NCBI GenBank assembly: GCA_030272155.1
Contig: CP126193.1
Span: forward strand, 7,998,001-8,062,000
DNA: 64,000 nt
Reading direction: 5' to 3'
DNA from: Tetradesmus obliquus
Taxonomy: Eukaryota > Chlorophyta > Chlorophyceae > Sphaeropleales > Scenedesmaceae
The position numbers and the translations under genes are program-made. How positions within the stretch are numbered: the first letter of the stretch is position 1; every line of letters starts with the position of its first letter. The notes under the pieces were generated by a model. The model was not told the origin of the DNA and did no database searches. It worked only from the letters and a program-made list of their open reading frames with translations. Positions 8,865 to 25,277 of the stretch are shown piece after piece.

Positions 8865-11050
8865 CGCTGGAGGCAGCGTGCTTGGTGTGCGTTGTGCTGG
8901 GGCGCAGGTGCGCCTTGCAGGCCTTCCGCATGCATGCTTGTTGGTGCTCCCGGCTGCTTCTGGCTTGACAATCTGCGTGATGAGGTGACGCCAGTCATGT
9001 TGTGCATGGTTGCACCCTTTCTTTGCTGCTGAGCCGCTTAAATGCTGCAGCAGCAGGCAGATGAGCCCCTCACTTGATGAGCCTGTACTTTTCTTTTCAT
9101 GTTGTCATGGTGCGTGGGTGAGGCAGTTGTTATGTTGTGCCCTGAGAGTGCGCGCGTGCGGCAGTTGATGGCAGGCTTAGGCAGCGAGGTGTCTTTGTGT
9201 GTTGGGACAAAGAGAAGAATGTTAATATGTACTGACAAGTGTTACGGCCCTAAGTAACACTGTCGTCACGTCAAGTGCATGATGGTATGCCATCAGTTGC
9301 AAAGCCACACACAAATGAACACAAAACAGCATGTCGCTCATCATTCCCAGTTCTGGTGTATAGGCTTGTGGGTTAGGTGTGGCTGTTGCGTGTGTGTGTG
9401 TGCAGCTGCCATGCTGTCTTGTGTTCTACCTAGACCTTTGTACATGTCAGCTGTGCTGCGCTGTATACAACCCTTGTAGCTCCCTGGTTCAAGAGCTCGA
9501 TTGCTGCTGCTGAAGAAGTGCAGTGTGCCAGTGCACAGGAGCGAAGAAGAAGAAGAGGGGTTACACGGTGTGCACAGGCAACTACGTTGCAACGAACACC
9601 CGAAAACACAGGAAAACTGCAGGAAGCTCAGCACAGGCCGTCACTCATGTGAGGCCCAACCCCAGAGAAATGGCCCCCGTGTGTAAGTTTCGGCATATGG
9701 CCATGCTAGCACAGCCGCCTTCCACACACACACAGGAGCGCATGGCAATATTGTCGTGTGTTGTGTCCTGTTTATGACAAAATACTTTTGCCGTTGGATC
9801 GTTTGCTTGTCAGCGGTTAAGCACAACCCTTTTTAGGTGCCGTGAGCTGGGTTCAATCCCTTGTGCCCATCTGCTTAGGCAGGTGGGTTGTGCACACGTC
9901 AAAGTGGTGATGCAGTGGGATACTCATGTCAGTGACAACTGCATACTCTTTTTCATGCCAAGTTGCAACCTCAGTGACGTTGAGTGTTGGTCAGACAGCC
10001 AGTACGTGGTGCTGTTCCGGGCTTGCTGCAGGAAGCAGAGGCAGCTGGTTCTGTTGGCAGGCACTGTGGCCTGCAAGCCAGTACCACCGTCTTTGACCTT
10101 TGTCTGTACATTCAAACAACCGCTGTACAAAAATCAGAGCTGTGCAACAAGCAGTGTGTTGTCTGCTGCGTGCATGGGCTGATGGTTGGCTTATTTCCTG
10201 GTTTGTAAGCGTGCTCGCCACCAGTCATGAGTGGCTTGCAAGTCTGCACCTTTGTCAAATGACGATTTCGACAAGCCAGGATCCCAAAGGACGCTGGTCA
10301 TGCACAGCTACGCACCTTCAAGCAACTTGCTTTGATAGAATGCTGAGCCAGAAGACCCCTGCCAAAGCTGCCTATGTGCATGCCCCCCTCCTGTGCAGGT
10401 GTCTGTGTTGGAGCTCTGCATGGCTTTAACTACTATGGATCATCTGTAATGCATGAACACCATGGATGTACAACTTTTGCTGCACCAGATAGCTATCCTT
10501 CTCCTCACGAGCGGTGGCAACCATGATTGCAGCACTGCTGGCCATGGAGATGAGAGCCTGTGACAGCTGCTCCACTTGCCTTGTGCAGGGACTGCTGCCA
10601 CTGCGAAGAGAGAGTATGATGACTGCCCGTAGCTTGCCTTGAGCCGTGGTGCGTAGCTTGGTTAGCAGCTTGGCATGCTAGGCAGTTCTCAGCAGGAACT
10701 TCGCATGGCACGTGCGATTTGGCAACAGATCTTTGTGCCCCGGCAGCTGCATTGTCGGGGTCACACTGACGTTGGTGTGTGGTTTCTTTTTGTTGACTTA
10801 TTGGCCAGGAGCAGGCCGAGCACGACTGACAAAGTGTCGATGACGCAACAAGGAAGTTGCTGACGAAGGCTAGCAATCCGGCATCAGAGCACCAACAGGC
10901 GCTCCCATACAACGAAAACTGGAGAATCAAGCGAATCTGCTGGGTTTTGACGTTCTCGGTGACTTCACCCTATAAAGAAACGACGGTTGTCCACCACAAT
11001 CCGCCTCACAGCAGGAGAACAGCCCACTTGCACGCCCCACCGAGAGCAAC
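8865..11050. other. Gene-poor stretch between the FHA gene and the small Gly-rich gene
   Basis: About 2.2 kb in which I can support no coding exon, RNA gene or transposon. The many short open frames on both strands lack domains, conserved motifs and paired splice sites. The first few hundred bases should hold the FHA gene 3' UTR. The last 100 bases hold the promoter of the next gene. Confidence 0.5.
10971..10977 (+). promoter_or_regulatory. TATA box of the small Gly-rich protein gene
   Basis: TATAAAG lies 80 bases upstream of the ATG at 11051, leaving room for a start site roughly 30 bases downstream and a short 5' UTR. It is the clearest core promoter element in the window, which fits a strongly or inducibly expressed small gene. 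Confidence 0.55.
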
Positions 11051-11752
11051 ATGGCCAGGCAAGTGCAGGCAGTGGAATTATGTTTAGCTGCTGCGAGCCA
11101 ATGTCTAGCAAGCTGCTCTGGTTGTCCGGGGCCTGGCCAATGATGCAGAGTCAGTTGTGCATTGCTTCACGCTGCTGCTCTCGTGGCAGCACCGTTGCCG
11201 GGAGCCAACGCGCAAAGGCATACATAACGTTGTAGTACTACTGCTCAGGAACAGCTGTGTATATGCACCAGCAGATGGAGCTGCTAACAGGTGCAACCGC
11301 CATGTCGCTGCACGCCACACCCCTGTGCTGCCCTTGTCTCTGCTGCCATGTTTCCGCGCAGCTCCCAGCAGTACAGGACCACCGGTGGCGCCGGCGTGGG
11401 CGGCAGCTACGGCCCAACCAGCAGCAGCGATGCAGACACGCGCTGCAAGACTGCCCTCAGCATCGACAGCAGCCTGAAGCCGCAGGCAGGGGCCCAGGCT
11501 GCGCCCTCAGGCCCTCAGGACCAGCCTGGCGCTGCCTCAGGCCAGGCTCAGGACCTCAGGCCTGACAGCCAGGCTGGGGATGCTTCAGGCATCAGCAGGG
11601 CCAGTGGCGGGGCTGGCATTGGTGGCAGCTACGGGCCTGCAGTGATGGCTGAGGTAGCGAAGCGGTCTGGCCAGCAGCAGAGTAGCGAGGCGCAGGGCAC
11701 CGCAGCGAACGAGGCTGGTGCGGAGCAGGGGCAGCAGCGCAGCAAGCTGTAG
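11051..11752 (+). CDS. Small hydrophilic Gly/Ala/Gln-rich protein (LEA-like), 2 exons
   Basis: I do not recognise a named family. CDS is join(11051..11058,11362..11752), 132 residues, total length divisible by three. Exon 1 is only eight coding bases (ATGGCCAG) with a GC donor (CAG|GCAAGT). Exon 2 opens so that the protein begins MASSQQYRTTGG. The protein has no hydrophobic segment and almost no aromatics, and is built of A, G, Q, S and P. A motif is duplicated: GGAGVGGSYGP near residue 11 and GGAGIGGSYGP near residue 95. Such composition is typical of disordered, LEA-like stress proteins, but that is inference. A TATA box stands 80 bases upstream. The exon 1 assignment rests on splice consensus and phase only; an alternative start inside exon 2's reading frame at 11348 is possible. 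Confidence 0.6.
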
Positions 11753-13049
11753 GTATGGAGCTGGAGTGTGAATGGCAGAGCACACTGTCTGCCGCAATGC
11801 CACAGAAAGGCCGTTCTGTCATGGCAGCCTTGTCAGGCTAGGCGGCATCAGCTTGCTGCTGCATACTGTGGAATCAGCCTTGTTTGGTGTGGCAGGATGT
11901 GCGGTTGCCAGGCCTGCGTGATGGTGTATTTGCACGATGCGCGCAGATTCTTGCCAGCCGCCAGCTTGGGGCCGCATCCATGATGCCCTTGGCTCCATGC
12001 CAAGATGCCTGCTCGTGGTTGCTTGGTTTACGCACAGCGCAGGCGTAGGTTGCAGTGTTTTGAGCCACCTTGCTACTACTGGCTGGTTGTTTTGCCTTGC
12101 GGTCGCTGCAAATGGTGTTGCCGTCAAGTTTGTAGCTTTGGCAAGAGCAGCATGCAAACGTATGCTGGCGCTCTACAAAGTTGCTCAGTACAGTGCTGGT
12201 GTTGAGCAGCACCTGTACAGCAGTCATGCCGGACTTGTCTGGTGTTTGAACTGTTGACACAACAGTTGCTGTGCATTTGTACAGCGCGACATGTTGGTGT
12301 GCCACCACGGCAGTCACTGAATGTGTTGGGGTGTTGGGTTGTTAACAGGGTTGAGTCGTGTAACACAGGGAAGCTGAACTTGCGCTGCGTGCTGCACAGT
12401 GGTGGCATGTGGAGTACAATACTCGTAGTAGAGGGCACAATTGGGACGATGGACATTGTTGTCTAGTGGTGTCACTGGTGATGATCGTGCAGGTTGCGGC
12501 TTGGCCGAACAGCACCCTGCTGCTCAGCAAACATGCTGTCACATTGATATTGCTGTGGATGCCTGCTGAACAGCGACAGGCTGGCCGCTGCTACCATTGT
12601 ACACAGTGCGCAAAGAAAGAGGGAAAGGTGCTTACACAGAAAGGCAACTACGGCAGCAGCGCCAGTGCTGGCGTACTTGCAACGGTCGCTGCACGTCTGG
12701 CACAAACACGACCCTGCTCAGAACATCTTATAACACACCACGAACCCTGCTGCACGAGCGGTCGCAGCTGGACTAAGTACTAGGCACACCCGCAACGAAC
12801 CAATGGCACTGCCGGCACACAGAGCCAGGCTGCTGAGAATGCCATGCCAAAACCATCTGCTCCTGGGCTAGTACACACCAGCACAGCGCATAGGGTCTGA
12901 TGAGGCTGTCAAAAGCCAAAACTAGTCATCCTTGTTAACGACTTCACGTTCGTCTAAACGTCCTTACACACCGCTGCCTGGGTCGCTGACAACCACTTCC
13001 TTGTTTACAATTCACATACTATGCCCTCGAGCTGCCACTGCCGCCAGCA
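11753..13049. other. Intergenic between convergent genes
   Basis: This stretch holds the 3' UTRs of the small Gly-rich gene (+) and the zinc-knuckle gene (-). TTACA, which is TGTAA on the minus strand, occurs at 13005-13009 and 12964-12968 just beyond the zinc-knuckle stop. Both are candidate polyadenylation signals for that gene. I see no gene in the rest. Confidence 0.4.
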
Positions 13050-14809
13050 TCACACGCCCAGCAGGCTCAGCATCTCCTGCAGGTCATCCTCATCATCACA
13101 CCCCGGCATGCACGCAGCCACGACAGACGCAACAGTGGCGAAGCTGCTGCTCTCCTGCTGTGCGTCCAGCAGCAGCTGCCGCACCTGCTGGTCTGCGCAC
13201 TGCAGCGAAGCAGAAGGACCAACATCCACCACCCCTGCGGCAGCTGCAGGCAGCTGCACCTCATCCTCATCCTCAGCATCAAGCTGATTAGCTGCGACTG
13301 CTGCTGCTGCTGCCGCTGCTTTGCCTTTCCTGGTTTTGTTGCGCGGAGCTGTGTTGCTGCTCTCCGTGGCCCTGTGCGCTGCACCGCCGTGCTGCTCACC
13401 CAGCTGCGCCTGCTCACCCTCGCCACCGCGCTCATCATCATCATCATCGCCACCGCGCTGCGCCCACACTGCCTCCAGCATCTGCTTTGCCGCCTGCTGG
13501 CTGCCTGCCAGGATGCCTGCCAGGTCACCAGGGGCCAGCCGTGACAGCAGCGCCAGTTTGGGCTGCTGCGCAATCAGGCCCACAGCGTACTCACCCAGCT
13601 CAGCAGCAAACAGCGCATGCACCAGCACCGCAGCCATCGCACGCTGCTGCTCCTCGCTGCCAGCAGCAGGCAGCAGCACATAGCCAACCGGTGCCGCGGC
13701 AGCAGGCTGCACGTTGCTGCTGCTGATCCTAGCACTCCCGCCACCATCGCTGCTGCGCCGCTGCTGCTCGTGCTGCCACTCTTGCTTCATCTGCTGGTTG
13801 TGGTGGTGGTGATGCTGCTGCTGGCGGTTGTGGCGATGTTTTCGCTGCTTCACCTGCTGCTCCTCCTGCTGTTGCTGCACCTGCTGCTGTGACGTCAGTG
13901 AAGGCTGCTGCTCCTTCAGTTGCAGTCGACGTCCCTGCTGCAAGGTCTGAGCTGCAACTTTGCCGCCGCACTCAGCAGTGCTGTGGTCGTACGCACCACA
14001 GCCTGCGCACGCCCTGCAGTCAAGAGCCATGTGGCCGAAGCACTTGCAGCGCCAGCACTGCGCATTGGGGCAGTGCTTGGCCTCATGCCCAAACAGCGAG
14101 CAGTGCTTGCACAGCAGCTGCCTGCAGCTGCCACCGTGCTGTTTGCCGCACGTTTTGCAGGCGCTGCTGCAGCCGTCGTCACTGTGGCCATGCAGCCGGC
14201 ACCTGCTGCACAGAGGCACCCTGCATGTTGATGGCAGGTGGCCCGCTGCGCCGCAGTCTGCGCACACCGGGTGCCCAAAGTTGAACACGTACAGCCTGTT
14301 GCCGTCCTTGACTGGCGCGCTGGCACCGCCAACTGCAGCAACTGTGGCACGCGGCGGTGCTCCGCGAGCAGCAGCAGCATCACTGCTGCTGCCTTTGACT
14401 GCGTTGCTTTTGGTTGTGCTGCTGCTGCTGCCGCTGGTGACCTTCTCAATGTGTTGCCGCTCTTGTGTGCTGTTTTGGCCACCTGGAGTGGCTGCAGTTG
14501 AAGTAATGCCATTGCACGTGGAAGCAGCCTGCTGCTGCTGCTGCTTTGTGCTGTTCTTCTTCACACTGTTGCTGTGTGCAGGCTTGCAGGCAGCTATGCT
14601 GCTGCTGCTGCTGCTGCTGCTTGCACTCTTCCACATTGCAGCAAATTCTGCAACGCTCTGCTGCTGCTGCTGCTGCTGCTCAGCTGCTGCAGCCAGTTGC
14701 ACAGCAGGCGCGCCCCTCTGCTGTGCGCTGCCTGCAGGAGGCGGCAGCACGGCAGCCACAGCAGCATCAGCAGATCCTGGACCTGTGATGCTGCCGCTGC
14801 CTCCGCCAG

Positions 14810-14842
<33 letters not shown>

Positions 14843-16351
14843 CCCTGCCTGCTTGCCGCTGCTGCTGCTGCTGCGGCGGCGGCGGCGGCGGCTGAGGCAC
14901 CACTGCTGGCCTGTGCGTGCAGCCTTCTGTTGCTGTGTGGTATCCTGCGCAGTCCTTGCAGGCCCTGCACTCGTTGGCCATGTGCCCATGGCACTTGCAG
15001 TGCCAGCACTGTGCATTGGGGCAGTGCATGAAGTTGTGGCCAAACAGGCCGCAGTGCATGCACAGCACCTGCCGGCACTGCCCAGTGTGCTGCTTGCCGC
15101 ACTTCTGGCAGGCGCTGCTGCAGGTGCCATTCGTGTGGCCTCGCCGGAAGCATGCGCTGCAGTAGTGTACCCTGCATGTTGCTGCAAAGTGGCCTGCTGC
15201 ACCGCACTGTGCACAGATGGGCTGGCTGCAGTTGAACATGTAGGCGCGGTCGCCCACCTGCACTGGCTTGCTGCTGCCATGTGCTGGAAGGTGCTTGGGC
15301 ACTGCTGCAGCCGCCGCCGCTGCTGCTGCCGGAACAGCTACAATTGTTGCAGCTTTGCCTGCTGCTGCTCCTGCTGCTCCTGCTGCTGCCGCTGCTGCTG
15401 GTGCTGACAGAGCTTGCTGAGACGCATAGCAGCCGCCAGCTGCTTTGCCCTGACTAGCACGGGCACTGCCTGTGCTGCTGCTGCTACTGCTGCTGCTTGT
15501 GCTCTTGCCACGCATCACAGCAGACGCGGCATCGCCCTGCTGCCCAGCCGGTGCAGTCGGCTGCCCAGCAGGCGCGCCCCTCTGCTGTGCACTGCCTGCA
15601 GGAGGCTGCAGCATGCCAGCTACAGCAGCATCGGCAGGTTCTGGACCTGTGCTGCTGCTGCTGCTGCCTTCAACGACACTGCTGCTTTCCGAGCCTGCTT
15701 GCTGCTGCTGCTGTGGCTGCTGCTGCCGCTGTGGCTGCTGCTGCTGCTTTGGCTGCTGCTTCAGCAGTGGCTGAGGCGCCACTGCTGGCCTGTGTGCGCA
15801 GCCTTCTGCTGCGCTGTGGTACTTTGCGCAGTCCTTGCACGCCCTGCACTGGCCGACCATGTGCCCATAGCACTGGCAGCGCCGGCACTGTGCTTTGGGG
15901 CAGTACGTGGACAGGTGACCAAACAGGCTGCAGTGCATGCACAGCACCTGTCGGCACTGCCCAGGGTGCTGCTTGCCGCACTGCTGGCAGGCGCTGCTGC
16001 AGGTGCCATCCCTGTGGCCGTGGCGGCAGCATGCACTGCAATACTGCACCCTGCATGTTGCTGCAAAGTGGCCTGCTGCACCGCACTGTGCACAGATGGG
16101 CTGGCTGCAGTTGAACATGTAGGCCCGATCGCCCACCTGCACTGGCTTGCTGCTGCCTGGTGCTGGTGGTTGCTTCGGCACTGCTGCAGCTGGCACAGCT
16201 ATTGTTGATGTAGCTTTTCCTGCTGCTGCTGCTGCTGTTGCTGAACCTGGTGCTGATGATGCTGGTGCTCCTGGTGCAGCAGCAACTGCTGCCACGAGAG
16301 CCTGCTGAAGCGCACAGCAGCCACCAGCTGTTGTGTGCTGACTAGCACTGG

Positions 16352-16384
<33 letters not shown>

Positions 16385-17576
16385 GTTTGTTCGATAAGTG
16401 CAGCTGCACTTCAGTGCTCTTTCCTGCCTTGGAAGCGGCTGCTGCTGGCTTGACACCATCTTCCTGAGGCATGCTGCTGCTGCTGCTGTCACCTTGGTGG
16501 CAGATGCTATGGCCAGTGCTGCTGGGCTGCTGCTGCTGCTGCTGCTGCTGAGTCAGCGCCTGCTTGCCCTTGCACTGGCCTGCGCTGTGGTGCTGCCTGC
16601 AAGTCATGCATGCCATGCACTGCCTGCACATGCAGCAGAAGGCAGAAGCAGCAGCAGGAGCACACGGTCGCGTCATGGTGTGTGCAGCTATTGATACTGC
16701 AGCAGGGAGCCGGCAGGAACCAGCAGCAACCAAGACAGGGACGCCTTACAACATTGTATGTTGACATGTGAAGCAACCGCAAGTGTGTCAAAGATCAAGA
16801 AAGTATTGTTGTATCACAGCAGCTGCTAGCCGCCAGCTGCAGTTAGCGAGGCCTCACCTGTGCATGTGCCCATACAGCCCACAGCGCACGCACTGCATGC
16901 GCGAGCACTCTGGGAGCTTGTGGCCAAACAGCTTGCACATGTTGCACTGGACCTCTGCGCAAGGGCTCAGCTGCGCGTGCAGCCTGCCGCACCTGCTGCA
17001 GGCAAGCCTGCAGGTGCCTGTCCTGTGCCCATGCAGGTTGCAGCTGGTGCAGAGGTGCGTCCTGCAAGCAGCCTCAAGGTGGCCCTTGCTGCCACACCTG
17101 GCACACACGGGGCCTTGGCTGAACTTGTACTGCACAGCACTTGCTGCTGCTGGTGGCGGGTCTGCTCTGTCTGCCTGCTGACTCATTCTGGCGCTGCCTG
17201 CAACTTCCTGCTGCTCTGCTGCTGCTGTCGTTCCTGACACAACCTTGGATGCTTTTGCACATCCAGCATGTACTGAAGCCTTGGCATCAGCTGGCTGTCC
17301 TGCAGTTGCCTTGCCTGGTGTGGCCGCTTCTGTGCCTGCCGTTGCAGCAGTGCCCAGGTTGCATGGCACCTGCTGCTGCATGGCTACAAGCTCCTCCTGC
17401 AGCCCTTCTGCTGTTTTTGGAGCGCCAGCATCAGCGCTACTGTTGCAGCTGCTTGTTGAAGCTGCTAAACTTGAGTCACAGCAGTCCTGGGTTGTTGCTG
17501 ATGCCTGAGGAAGTGTTGCCATGGTGTGCTGCTGCTGATTGGGCTGAGGACTTAGCTGGCCTGTCCTGCAAAGCAC
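13050..17576 (-). CDS. Giant CCHC zinc-knuckle protein: 24 knuckles in four six-knuckle modules
   Basis: CDS is complement(join(13050..16623,16858..17576)), 1430 residues. The protein carries four copies of a module of about 100 residues with six zinc knuckles each, at roughly residues 158-257, 417-515, 709-807 and 1025-1123. Knuckles 1, 2, 4 and 5 are C-x2-C-x4-H-x4-C. The third is shortened (for example CQQCGKQHPGQC) and the sixth is C-x2-C-x3/4-H-x4/5-C. Splicing the single intron rebuilds knuckle 5 of module 1 exactly (CVRCGLYGHM then HRQC), strong support for the model. Linkers are poly-S, Q, A and P. The C-terminal ~200 residues contain a predicted helical part and acidic runs. Knuckles of this kind bind single-stranded nucleic acid, so an RNA-binding role is likely but unproven. 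No protease, integrase or reverse transcriptase is nearby, so it is not an obvious retroelement gag. The start could also be the second Met (17522). Confidence 0.85.
16624..16857 (-). other. Intron inside a zinc knuckle of the CCHC protein
   Basis: The donor is CACAG|GTGAGG and the acceptor TGTGCAG|GCAGTG on the minus strand, phase 2. The intron splits the histidine-to-last-cysteine spacer of knuckle 5 in module 1. The other three modules are uninterrupted in one exon of 3574 bp. Confidence 0.8.
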
Positions 17577-18429
17577 TCTGCTTGCTGAAGCGCTGAGGAT
17601 GCTGAATCGTTCATGACTGCCATGCTATACAACCTTGGTTGTCTGCCGGCCAATGAATACCTGGTTGTAGCCTATGTGTGTTGCCACCTGCACATGGCGG
17701 AGCGCAACAAGCAGTCCATGACCACTGCACCACAAATCAGCTGATTTGTCTTGCAGGACGCTCAGCAGGGCACCAACATACTGCTCATAGGCACCAACGT
17801 ATTGAACGGTGTTTGCCTTTGATCAATGGAAGGCCCAGCCTATCCCTGGTTCATGTTTCAGCTGCTTGGCTGTGGCAGCAAACTTACCTGCTGCAGGTTG
17901 CAGCATCTGCACGAGCGCGTGGGCGCCGCTGCTCGAACCTCACGCCACTGCTGAAGCAACGGTACTAACAATCAGATAAGTCCATGATCTTGCGATGCAC
18001 AGCGGAGAGATCGTGACTACATTCAAGTTGGCGGGCACGCTTGAAAGGGGCTTCTGGACAGCCGTGGTCTGCCGACCTCGCTAACGGTTAGCTAAAAGAT
18101 ATTGAAGCAGTCTGATGGTGAAGCTGGACCTTTATGTGTACGAGTAGCTTCACTGTGCAGGGCACTGTCATGAAGGGTTTCGACAGCGATGGCATCCTGC
18201 AGTAGGCGAACCGTAATCAGCAGAAATAAGTATCATTTAATTATCAGTTCATCTATGCACATTGAAACGCTTTGCGCTGTTCCCTACCACCGTCTCTCCG
18301 CAGCCCCTATGCCCTTGAGTCAGCAGTAGCTTGACTGGAGCAGTGCAGTGTCAGCAGGAGTGTCCTGCCGACGCAACCGAGTCCAGAAACACCTGTTACC
18401 GACTTGATACCTACTGACAGCCACCAGCC
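17577..18429. promoter_or_regulatory. Divergent promoter region, zinc-knuckle gene / DRC3
   Basis: The 853 bp between the two head-to-head start codons should carry both promoters and 5' UTRs. No clear TATA box or repeated element is visible. Short open frames in it have no family features. Confidence 0.4.
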
Positions 18430-20228
18430 ATGCCTGTCAGCCTGGAACGGCTGATAGCAGAGGTTGAACCAGCAGTAGTGACAGATGAGTTGATCAGAGA
18501 CTGCATAGTGGTGAGCGCAGCCGTTACCTGCATAACAGCGCCTTATTAAGCACACTATGCAAAGGTTGAAGTTTTCGAATCCCACTACAGGTCACAGGGG
18601 ACCCAGATTCCGCAGAAGATAAAAAGCAGAGCCTGGCCTTTGGGCAGGTTGAGTGCGCGGCATTCAGCTTTCGCAGCCTTGCCCGCATAGACAACCTCTG
18701 GGGACTTACAAAGCTTGTCAAGCTGCAGTTAGATAACAATCAAATACAGCGCATAGAGAACCTTGAGCACCTGGTAAGTGCAGGCTGCATGGAATTGGCT
18801 GTGCATGGCGCAGCAGCAGCAACCTGCAGGTTTCAGCAGCTGTGTAACAGTGTACAAGGGTGCCCTCTTACAGCCTGCTGAACGTCTCACTAACTTCACA
18901 GGCAGTGGTCATACACGACAACAGGCGGAGCTTTTAAAAGCAGCGGATGGAGCATTTGCAGTGCTGAGCTCTTCTGCTGCTATGTGGTTCCTGCAAGCCT
19001 GCTGCGCTGCCTGCTGCCCATGCAGACCAACCTGACCTGGCTAGACCTGTCCTTCAACAAGATCCAAGCCATAGAGGGGCTGAGCACCCTCACTCGCTTG
19101 CAGGATTTGTCGCTGTTCAGCAATGCCATCACTAACATAGAGGGCCTGGACAACCTGCCCAACCTCAACGTGCTGTCACTGGGTGAGCTGCTGCACACAG
19201 CAAGCATTCACAGCAGGACAGCCCCAAAACACACGTGCTGCACCTCTCCATTTGTGCTCATGCACCTTGTAACAGACCTTGTGCCTGCAACGTGCCCTAG
19301 GGTGCAAGCGGACAGGCAGAGGGCGTGGAGCCCAGGGGCGCTGCCACACACACCCTCTTCAGCCTCAACTCAACCAGGAGTTGCAGAGATGCCTGGGAAG
19401 TCACTCACTCACTCACTCGCCTGCCATTGCTGCCTCTGGCCGCTGCTGGCCCCAGGCTCCAACCAGCTGTCGCGGCTGGAGTGCGTGTCATGCCTAGTGG
19501 CCTTCAGCCGGCTGCAGCTGCTCAACCTGGCGGGCAACCCGCTGGCCAAGGAGCCCGACTACCGCGGCTACGTGCTCAGCCACCTGCAGCAGCTGCGGTA
19601 CCTGGACTACAGGTGCGGGGGCGGGGGGTCAAAGACAACACAAAGCGAAGCTGCATGGGGAGTCAGTGGTGTGCATAGCAGGTCGCTTGGGCTGGATACA
19701 TGGTGGTATGACGGAGGCCATGGTTGTTCACGTTGAGGTCGGAGGGTTTGATGGAGTTGGTGTTTCATGCATGCTCAAATTATATGTAGATAGCATATGC
19801 CGCGTGCAAAATCATCTTGTCACCAGCGCCCTGGCCGTGCATCCTGCAGGCGCGTGCTGTCTGCGGACCGCGCCACCGCCATGGAGCAGCACCAGGACGA
19901 GATGCTGGAGCTGCGGGAGCGTGAGGACGCGGCAGCGGCAGAGAAGGCGGCGGCAGCGGAGAAGGCGGCGCATGCAGCAACCATGGCAGAGGCCAACCTC
20001 ACAGGTGGGGCGGGCGGTTGGACAGACAGGCACGCTCACACCATGGGGCCGGAGGAGGGCTGATCTTGCTCGACGCATAGACAGCTGCTCATAGGGGCTG
20101 AGTTGCCCACTGCTGTCTGGGGGCTGCATATTATGTTGTGCTTACAGAGCATGTTTGGGCAAGCAGCTTCAGAGGACAGCTGCCTCTTGCTCTGCGCCTG
20201 GTGTTGCTGACGGACTAGCTTGTTGTCC

Positions 20229-23085: not shown

Positions 23086-25277
23086 ATGGAGCTCGACGAC
23101 GTCACTGAGCGCCTGCAGGACGCGTTGCACAGCTGTCCCGCGCTGAGGGCGCAGCTGGGCCTGCAGGGCCTGGCCTGCCTGGCTGCATGCAGCAGGAGGC
23201 TCAAGGAAACTTGTAACAATAGAGTGACGCTAGAGGCCCCTATTCTGCTCAACCAGTTGCTGGAGCCGGAGCAAGGCCCCCAGCTACTGGCGCAGCAGCA
23301 CAGGCCTGCAGTGTTGTGGCTGGTGACGCTGCTGCGTGGAACCCAAAACAAAGCTGCTGCGGCAGGCGTCGCGCAGCGCCTGGTGATGGTGCCAGACATC
23401 AAGTTGGACTGGGCGCTGCACCTGGTGGAAGCTGGGTTGCGTATCACACATGTGCAGCTGCCGGCTGCAGCTGACAGCATGGTGGCTGGCGTGGAGGTGT
23501 GGGTGCAGGCGCAGAAGCAAATGAAGGCCAAAAGCGACATACTACCAGCTGCTTATACAATCTGCTGCAGCAATGGGTGAGTGGTGTAAGGCGTCTGGAG
23601 ACTGACCGGTTCAATCCAAACAACTTGCACAACCTTTTAGTCCTGTGGTGCGTGGTGCTGCCAGCCAAGTACGGGTTCAAGTGCCCGCTGTGCTCTGCCA
23701 GTCAGCCACGTTTGTGCCCTTCAACAGATGTATTGTGTCATTGTGCTTCTGCATCCTGATTGCAATAGCTGCACTGCTGCTGCTGCTGCTTCTGCTGCTG
23801 TGCTCAGGGTCCCCTCAAGCTGCCCCCAGAGCACACCGCCTCCCTGCTGCAGCTGGCCATGAACTGCAGCAGGCCAGAGACAGCAGCAGCAGCAGCACGC
23901 CGTTTGCCAGGGGCCCTCGAGCCAGAGTTTGCAAGGAAGCTGTTGGTGACTGCAGCCACCAGGCAGCATGCAGAGGTGGTGCAGGGCATGATGCAGCGGG
24001 CAGCAGTGCTGCAGCACGTCGACGCACCCACGCTTGCGCCAGTGCTGTGTGGGATGATTAAGGATGGCGGCCATGCAGGCTTTGTGAGCACCCTGTGTGA
24101 TTTGCCTGCAGCAGCGCAGTTTAAAGGTGATTCAGTCTGCAAGCTGCTACTGGCCGCTGCACAGCACAAAGAATATGCGTATGCAGCGCGGCTGTGCAGG
24201 CTTGCAGGGGCACAGCAGATGACAGGCGAGCACGTGGTAGCGCTGCTGGCAGTATTCCTGGTGACATACGGAAGCAGCTCATACTGGGAGAGTCACCTCT
24301 CCCAAGAGCTTGTGGCTTGCATGGCAAGCATCTTTGCACTGCCGGCAGCGCAGCAGCTGAGCTGCAGCAGCATCTTGCGGCTGCTGCGGGCATGCCGTGA
24401 CGCGCAGAGCAGCTGCACCTTCCAGGACCATGTGATGAGGCTGCTGAGCAGGCTGCCAGCCGCAGTGCAGCTCCAGCCCCGGGACCCCGTGCAGAGAATG
24501 CTGCTAGACATACGGAAAGGCGACAGCGGACTGGTCAGCAACCTGGCCCGCTTGCCAGCAGCGCAGGACATCAGCGGCGAGCAGCTGCTGCAGCTGTTGA
24601 CAGCAGCCGCCAAGGAGCCTGCCTGGGCCAGCTGTGTAGGTACAGAAGAGCTCTGCGAGCTGCCGGCAGCGGCGCAGATAAGTGACGCTGAGGCAGCAGG
24701 GCTGCTGGTGGCGGCGCTGCAGCAAGGCAAGGCTGAATGCATGGAGGCGCTGCGTCAGCTGCCAGCAGCCCATCCCCTCAGCAGTGGGAGCGTGTCACAG
24801 CTTCTGGGAGCGGCTGCCAGCGCCGCCAACGAGATAATTCAAGAGGCGCTGTCGACCCTCCCAGAGGGAGTGGAGCTCAGCAGCAGCATACAGGCGCAGC
24901 ACCTGAAAGAGTTCAAGCATTGGCGTTGTATCGAGGTGCTCTTTGACTGGTTGGATGACGAGCAGCAGCTGAGTGCTGAGCTCACAGGGGAGGCGCTGCG
25001 GGTGGCTGCGCTGTGGTGCCTGTCAAATACGATGGAGGAGCTGTGCGAGCTGCCACCAGCCGAGCTGCTCAGCAGCAAGCAAGTGGCAGCAGCGCTTGAG
25101 GCGGCTGTGATGCGAGGCAGCGAGGAGTGCACACAGTTGCTGTGCAAGCTGCCGGCAGCGCAGCACCTGAGCAAGAAAGATGTGCGATGGCTGCTGGCCA
25201 CTGCTGAGCGGTCTGGCAGCCTCTTATGCACGGCAGTGCTTCGCCAGCTGCCCGCAGCAGGTTGGGCGCTGCAGTGA
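23086..25277 (+). CDS. Uncharacterised LPAA helical-repeat protein
   Basis: I do not recognise a named family. Two certain coding blocks are 23086..23576 and 23808..25277. The first has an F-box-like start (LQDALHSCPALRAQLGLQGL) and the conserved-looking SMVAGVEVWVQAQ. The second holds roughly ten helical repeats of 33-45 residues, each with a core such as ELPAAAQIS or KLPAAQHLS, then a V-x-x-LL-x-AA helix and a second helix. This suggests an alpha-solenoid for protein or RNA binding. The junction is unresolved: block 1 ends in phase 2 (GG|GTGAGT) and block 2 opens in phase 0 (CAG|GGT). A 28-base exon at 23641..23668 (TTTTAG acceptor, AA|GTACGG donor) would reconcile them, giving 662 residues. 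A frameshift is the alternative. There is no signal peptide or membrane segment. Confidence 0.6.

Follow-up and report, generated by a model that had tools for sequence, protein, structure and literature searches.

A gene on the minus strand of a 64,000-nucleotide stretch of the Tetradesmus obliquus genome (contig CP126193.1, C3 in our numbering, positions 7,998,001–8,062,000; the whole stretch is referred to below as the window) was found to encode a protein of 1,412 residues with 24 CCHC zinc knuckles in four modules of six. Judged by its sequence, it appears to be an intact nuclear host gene of a Scenedesmus-like green alga. It is read as belonging to a family in which a zinc cassette of six ordered knuckles is combined with a short C-terminal domain and a leucine-rich acidic tail; in the window member, internal duplication would have raised the number of cassettes to four. 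The protein is probably a multivalent single-stranded-RNA scaffold.

Non-overlapping motifs of the form CX2CX3-4HX3-5C were counted in the spliced frame; 24 were obtained, arranged 4 × 6, whereas 1,000 shuffles of the same residues gave a mean of 0.10 motifs and a maximum of three. The four six-knuckle modules described in the initial annotation were confirmed. Most of the motifs are of the canonical form CX2CX4HX4C, by which the 24 knuckles belong to zf-CCHC; knuckles 3 and 6 are mostly off-length. The shortened third knuckle (CX2CX3HX3C), thought to mark every module, was present in modules 2–4, and module 1 carries CX2CX3HX5C in its place. The sixth knuckle, likewise thought to be a constant variant, is not one fixed variant: it reads CX2CX3HX5C in modules 2 and 3 and CX2CX3HX4C in module 1, but is canonical in module 4.

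The modules lie on the minus strand at 16572–17105 (module 1, spanning the intron), 15798–16094 (module 2), 14919–15215 (module 3, 79% identical to module 2) and 13968–14264 (module 4, 63% identical to module 2). By DNA comparison, modules 2 and 3 are closer to each other than any other pair (300 nucleotides at 84%, spacing 879), and a duplication of some 870 nucleotides is suggested (repeat spacings 879 and 864). Their lead-in GDRAYMFNCSQPICAQCGAA was found to be identical in both (16133–16074 and 15254–15195), as was the flank PPAGSAQQRGAPA behind them (15605–15567 and 14741–14703). In a tree of knuckles 1–4 from 12 modules, modules 2 and 3 were joined at 72%, modules 2–4 at 76%, and module 1 with these at 48%. 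DNA repeats, residue identity and tree agree with the earlier view that the module was duplicated inside the gene, modules 2 and 3 most recently.

Zinc ligands and other positions were compared separately. Between modules 2 and 3, 24/24 ligands and 64/88 other positions were kept; between modules 2 and 4, 23/24 and 41/88, the sole ligand mismatch being, by eye, the shifted histidine of knuckle 6; and between modules 1 and 2, 23/23 aligned ligands and 25/88 other positions, which bears out the description of module 1 as the most diverged. The corresponding values for module 2 against the protein encoded at C2:3444 kb, a relative described below, were 23/24 and 23/86, and against two modules of a cluster on C2 they were 22/24 each for the ligands and 13/85 and 13/84 for the rest. 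As read from these comparisons, the zinc sites are under constraint, which is loose at the other positions.

The gene extends from the ATG at 17522 to the stop codon at 13052–13050, and its two exons (17522–16858 and 16623–13050) give a spliced frame of 4,239 nucleotides that is open throughout. The start at 17576 assigned earlier was replaced, the first in-frame ATG being that at 17522 (context CACCATGGCA). Exon 1 (16858–17522) encodes a low-complexity N-terminus, knuckles 1–4 of module 1 and most of its knuckle 5; exon 2 (13050–16623) encodes the remainder of module 1, modules 2–4, the C-terminal domain and the acidic tail. The predicted intron between them (16624–16857, 234 nucleotides) has the ends GTGAGG...TGCAG. 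Joining of the exons rebuilds the CX2CX4HX4C motif of knuckle 5 of module 1, which the intron splits (16892–16617), and adds knuckle 6, so that at sequence level the proposed splice is supported by its GT-AG ends and by the rebuilt knuckle. On the same strand, 40 nucleotides beyond the stop, lies a TGTAA (13005–13009; second copy at 12964–12968), which we take to be a chlorophyte-type polyadenylation signal; the motif occurs 28 times on the minus strand across the whole window. On the strength of the knuckles restored by splicing, the start context and the nearby TGTAA, the predicted gene model may be regarded as supported at sequence level.

The genome (104.66 Mb, 17 contigs) was searched with one module as query. 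Seventeen matches were obtained at E≤10, and 13 were counted as modules: the four of the window gene, seven clustered at C2:2347–2376 kb and single ones at C2:3444 kb and on C14. Left out of the count were a match on C12 (E 7e-4, 33% over 59 residues, with a stop inside), one on C16 (E 0.18, three stops) and the weak C2 matches 2347316 and 2352800; the match at C2:2357312 was counted in spite of a TGA within it, because knuckles 1–4 lie in an open frame of 122 residues. The best module matches outside the window gene are at most 46% identical. The module alignments comprise 12 of the 13 modules (C2:2353068 omitted), several of the rows being partial. Fifteen columns are invariant in this 12-row alignment, all of them knuckle ligands or glycines, and the third knuckle is irregular in length; zf-CCHC from Pfam matches 8 of the 12 rows at E≤0.1. 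The window gene shares the ordered cassette, the invariant ligands and the irregular third knuckle. Six is to be understood as the core rather than as a rule, since an additional seventh or eighth knuckle was noticed by eye in two relatives. With nine further modules in this genome and relatives outside it, the proposal that the module is a conserved unit occurring elsewhere holds. The family would seem, from these comparisons, to be fast-evolving and modular, and it is probably lineage-specific.

The relative at C2:3444 kb (L023:5906–9286) was observed to hold, in one open frame, the cassette, the C-terminal domain and a stretch resembling UCH (PF00443, 24.2 bits, the cut-off being 23.9), together with a stretch resembling a tryptophan domain and an acidic LL motif; a fusion with a ubiquitin hydrolase is possible on this evidence. 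That tryptophan domain was seen in the C2:2346–2376 kb cluster (L018–L021), where some of the knuckle frames also have a repeated domain, about 65 residues long, in which two tryptophans are invariant (alignment of nine rows, one from the C2:3444 kb frame). In the two frames of the cluster scanned with Pfam at E≤1, nothing was matched besides zf-CCHC.

Searches of a protein database gave four relatives of the family (P0005–P0008), one of which is named, from Scenedesmus sp. NREL 46B-D3 (P0006). P0005, obtained from 10 candidates, matches 82% of the C2:3444 kb stretch used as query at 96% identity; P0006 is 99% identical to a C2 module, and P0007 is 73% identical to P0006. P0006, P0007 and P0008 were found among 664 candidates, as was the generic knuckle protein P0009. 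A query stretch holding low-complexity sequence gave no match; these searches require shared exact words and limit length, and relatives elsewhere could escape them. A label of P0005 as plant DUF627/DUF629 was dropped, Pfam giving no family at E≤0.1. Among the papers listed on algal, tandem and lineage-specific zinc knuckles, CNBP and domesticated gag, none dealing with the six-knuckle family was found; in the available parts, PMC7955037 has no zinc knuckle at its four places with "zinc", and "zinc", "CCHC" and "knuckle" are all absent from PMC12571836.

The C-terminal domain of the window protein comprises 76 residues (1202–1277; 13458–13685, minus strand). It had been called unrecognised, which stands in so far as Pfam gives no match, but it is not unique, as it recurs in this genome. 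With the window domain as query, 11 places on C2, C3, C5 and C6 were found at E≤10, seven of them at E≤1e-3, itself included; a relative's copy as query gave eight places, four at E≤1e-3 including itself. The domain occurs both with and without knuckles; the frames read for the carriers at C5:1467 kb and C6:1736 kb and, weakly, C8:4657 kb (L069–L071) had no knuckles recognisable by eye. The window gene also shares the C-terminal domain of the family, the conservation of which is weak. The domain alignment has 11 rows, two being from C2:2346–2349 kb frames picked by eye and the C8 row resting on a weak match (E 0.27–0.33); it is without C5:1432882 (E 8e-7), and the C14 copy came to light afterwards, by eye. 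A single-sequence AlphaFold prediction was all-helical at low confidence (predicted local distance difference test, pLDDT, 55), and none of the 13 Foldseek matches listed for this model reached E≤0.001.

The acidic, leucine-rich tail DDEDDLQEMLSLLGV (13053–13097, minus strand) was judged by eye on five short ends. The tail of the C14 gene, DDDDDELADMLSLLGVAA, and that of a C2 gene, DDDDLDEMLGLLNVAK, are similar to it, and weaker forms were seen in two others. Since the C14 tail as query gave no match in the genome besides itself, the tail is to be taken as a short motif judged by eye.

On balance we lean towards an overall reading in which the cassettes would bind single-stranded RNA with avidity and a partner would be recruited. 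Each cassette would grip the RNA across several nucleotides; the long Gln/Ser/Ala linkers would allow the four cassettes to sit on one RNA with high avidity, or to bridge several; the C-terminal domain and tail would dock a partner; and the protein could act much as CNBP/Gis2 do, as a ribonucleoprotein scaffold or regulator. The sequence itself shows the gene structure, the modules, the conserved ligands, the presence of module and C-terminal domain elsewhere in the genome and the similar tails; expression, RNA binding, avidity and docking are what we infer. Binding of single-stranded RNA is considered the likeliest role because of the known behaviour of such CCHC knuckles: the available part of PMC3528734 gives single-stranded RNA as their ligand and adds that proteins may be bound too. 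The linkers are not taken as particular evidence of condensates, because Gln/Ser/Ala simple tracts are also common in other frames of the window.

Several results weigh against this reading. Pfam matched zf-CCHC in exon 1 at E 0.089; in the frame of exon 2 it recognised none of the knuckles, even with E≤1 allowed. The ratio of non-synonymous to synonymous changes (dN/dS) among the four modules was 0.39–0.85, which is not low, and silent codon changes were found at only 5/24 ligand positions across the four modules, so that the ligand comparison is left with no clean silent-site control. AlphaFold prediction of module 2 from six rows was of moderate confidence (pLDDT 68, predicted template modelling score 0.43), the first half being better (block means 77–86 for residues 11–50). 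Foldseek with this model gave no match at E≤0.001 among the 22 listed (best E 0.2); Trypanosoma brucei RNase D and retroviral nucleocapsids are among the weak matches. Docking by the C-terminal domain is weakened by its alignment, in which only 2/94 columns are invariant, and by a search with the C14 copy, in which no copy but itself scored below E 0.017. The ability of zinc knuckles to serve as protein-interaction modules (PMC3528734, as far as its available part goes) also counts here.

On that last ground the cassettes might be mainly protein-binding and the family one of adaptors, for example around ubiquitin or RNA-decay enzymes, with RNA binding a minor activity. The relative with cassette, C-terminal domain and UCH-like stretch in one open frame points the same way; its UCH match is barely above the cut-off, however, a single transcript joining it to the cassette is only putative, and P0005 ends ahead of the UCH-like stretch and is matched by no Pfam family at E≤0.1. 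The canonical CX2CX4HX4C spacing dominates in the window protein, as in RNA-binding knuckles, and the adaptor explanation is considered unlikely. Binding of single-stranded DNA (telomeric or G-rich repeats) rather than RNA would be in keeping with knuckle arrays of other proteins, which bind single-stranded DNA besides RNA; we regard it as quite improbable.

A domesticated gag had been offered in the initial annotation as an alternative, and a gag of an active, multi-copy long terminal repeat (LTR) element as a finding that would refute its proposal. A domesticated or decaying retroelement gag with multiplied nucleocapsid knuckles is, in our judgement, very doubtful, even though gag typically has CCHC knuckles, retroviral nucleocapsids are among the profile matches to solved structures, and the genome is rich in reverse transcriptases (at least 150 RVT_1 matches, 150 of 267 candidates having been scored). 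The repeated gag-like frames of this genome (among L041–L058, so labelled from their repetition and nearness to reverse transcriptase matches) are single-knuckle, as judged from 30 of the 59 genome zf-CCHC matches. None of the 150 RVT_1 and eight RVT_2 matches listed falls within the window, within the C2:2347–2376 kb cluster or near the C2:3444 kb and C14 genes, 117 RVT_1 candidates being unscored. Direct repeats of at least 60 nucleotides at 11000–20000, the span in which LTRs were sought, are the modules only. The module is of low copy number (13 counted), with matches outside the gene at most 46% identical, and an intron interrupts module 1. Within these limits on RVT_1 scoring and LTR span, neither linked pol or LTRs nor near-identical copies were found, and the picture is not that of an active multi-copy LTR gag. 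A degenerating duplicate without function, for which the high dN/dS values and heavy simple repeats would speak, is scarcely believable beside 4,239 nucleotides of open spliced frame, 24 intact knuckles, consensus splice sites and a paralogue-like tail.

Beyond the preferred reading of the protein as an RNA-binding scaffold, a wider proposal is put forward tentatively, as one more open to doubt than to belief. Scenedesmus-type algae may have evolved a modular RNA-binding family of their own, composed of the cassette, a new helical docking domain and the acidic LL tail, and multiplied by gene duplication, by fusion into a ubiquitin-hydrolase-like protein and, in the window member, by internal quadruplication; the outcome would be a multivalent RNA scaffold of 24 knuckles, with non-ligand residues changing at a pace which hints that its targets shift. 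If so, one genome would offer a natural series of 6, 8 and 24 knuckles in which avidity and specificity could be related to knuckle number, and two protein pieces lacking a Pfam match here, the C-terminal domain and the DDxxLxxMLSLLGV-like tail, would be defined. For algal genomics, such a gene family would be one that could be masked as low-complexity sequence or mistaken for a transposon.

Ten neighbouring frames of the window were scanned with Pfam, and four were matched, all of ordinary cellular kinds: actin-like and FHA-domain frames on the left and two leucine-rich-repeat frames on the right. The leucine-rich-repeat frames (18570–19736, for which Pfam gives the repeat only) adjoin the knuckle gene and resemble the flagellar protein DRC3. 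An open frame of 502 residues at 23769–25277, with a unit "LPAA..." of about 33 residues repeated by eye, had no Pfam match at E≤0.001. Within 13050–17522, runs of CTG/CAG-type triplets were seen to hold several frames open on both strands, and are therefore a source of false long open reading frames.

Four known systems were compared with the window gene. MLLE (PABC) is likewise a small, probably all-helical C-terminal domain, and a short stretch looks alike by eye, but the KITGMLLE signature is missing from the window domain. Reading the latter as MLLE was given up: Pfam matched none of the 11 members to MLLE at E≤10, and in hhalign against five PABP/UBR5-type MLLE sequences the score was equalled or beaten by 42/100 column shuffles. 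MLLE itself (PF00658) occurs at one place in this genome, in a PABP-like frame (108.7 bits).

Among the solved structures matched by profile, the knuckles of AIR2 and of retroviral nucleocapsids come first. AIR2 (of AIR1/AIR2, subunits of TRAMP) is the best (2lli, E 6.6e-10, best over knuckles 2–5), and, like the window modules, it has an odd knuckle. The match is nevertheless generic: the native order of the four AIR2 knuckles ranked 12th of 24 orders against the family profile, whereupon homology by register was dropped, and the unrelated P0009 outscores AIR2 on this profile (41.6 versus 32.9 bits). Retroelement gag nucleocapsids have the same zinc motif, from which the window gene departs in knuckle number and order, its intron, its low copy number and the lack of a listed reverse transcriptase nearby.

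CNBP, Gis2 and Byr3 resemble the window protein in having arrays of CX2CX4HX4C in a cellular protein that is a likely binder of single-stranded RNA. A three-knuckle frame on C11 is CNBP-like in look and represents a separate gene (25 bits with the family profile). CNBP/Gis2 would be recognised by a small protein with about seven canonical knuckles in one unbroken array, which the window gene lacks. CNBP, of 18.7 kDa, consists largely of seven knuckles (PMC3528734, available part), whereas the window protein has 24, with an irregular third knuckle, in four separated cassettes within 1,412 residues, and its linkers are long, with a C-terminal domain and a tail in addition.

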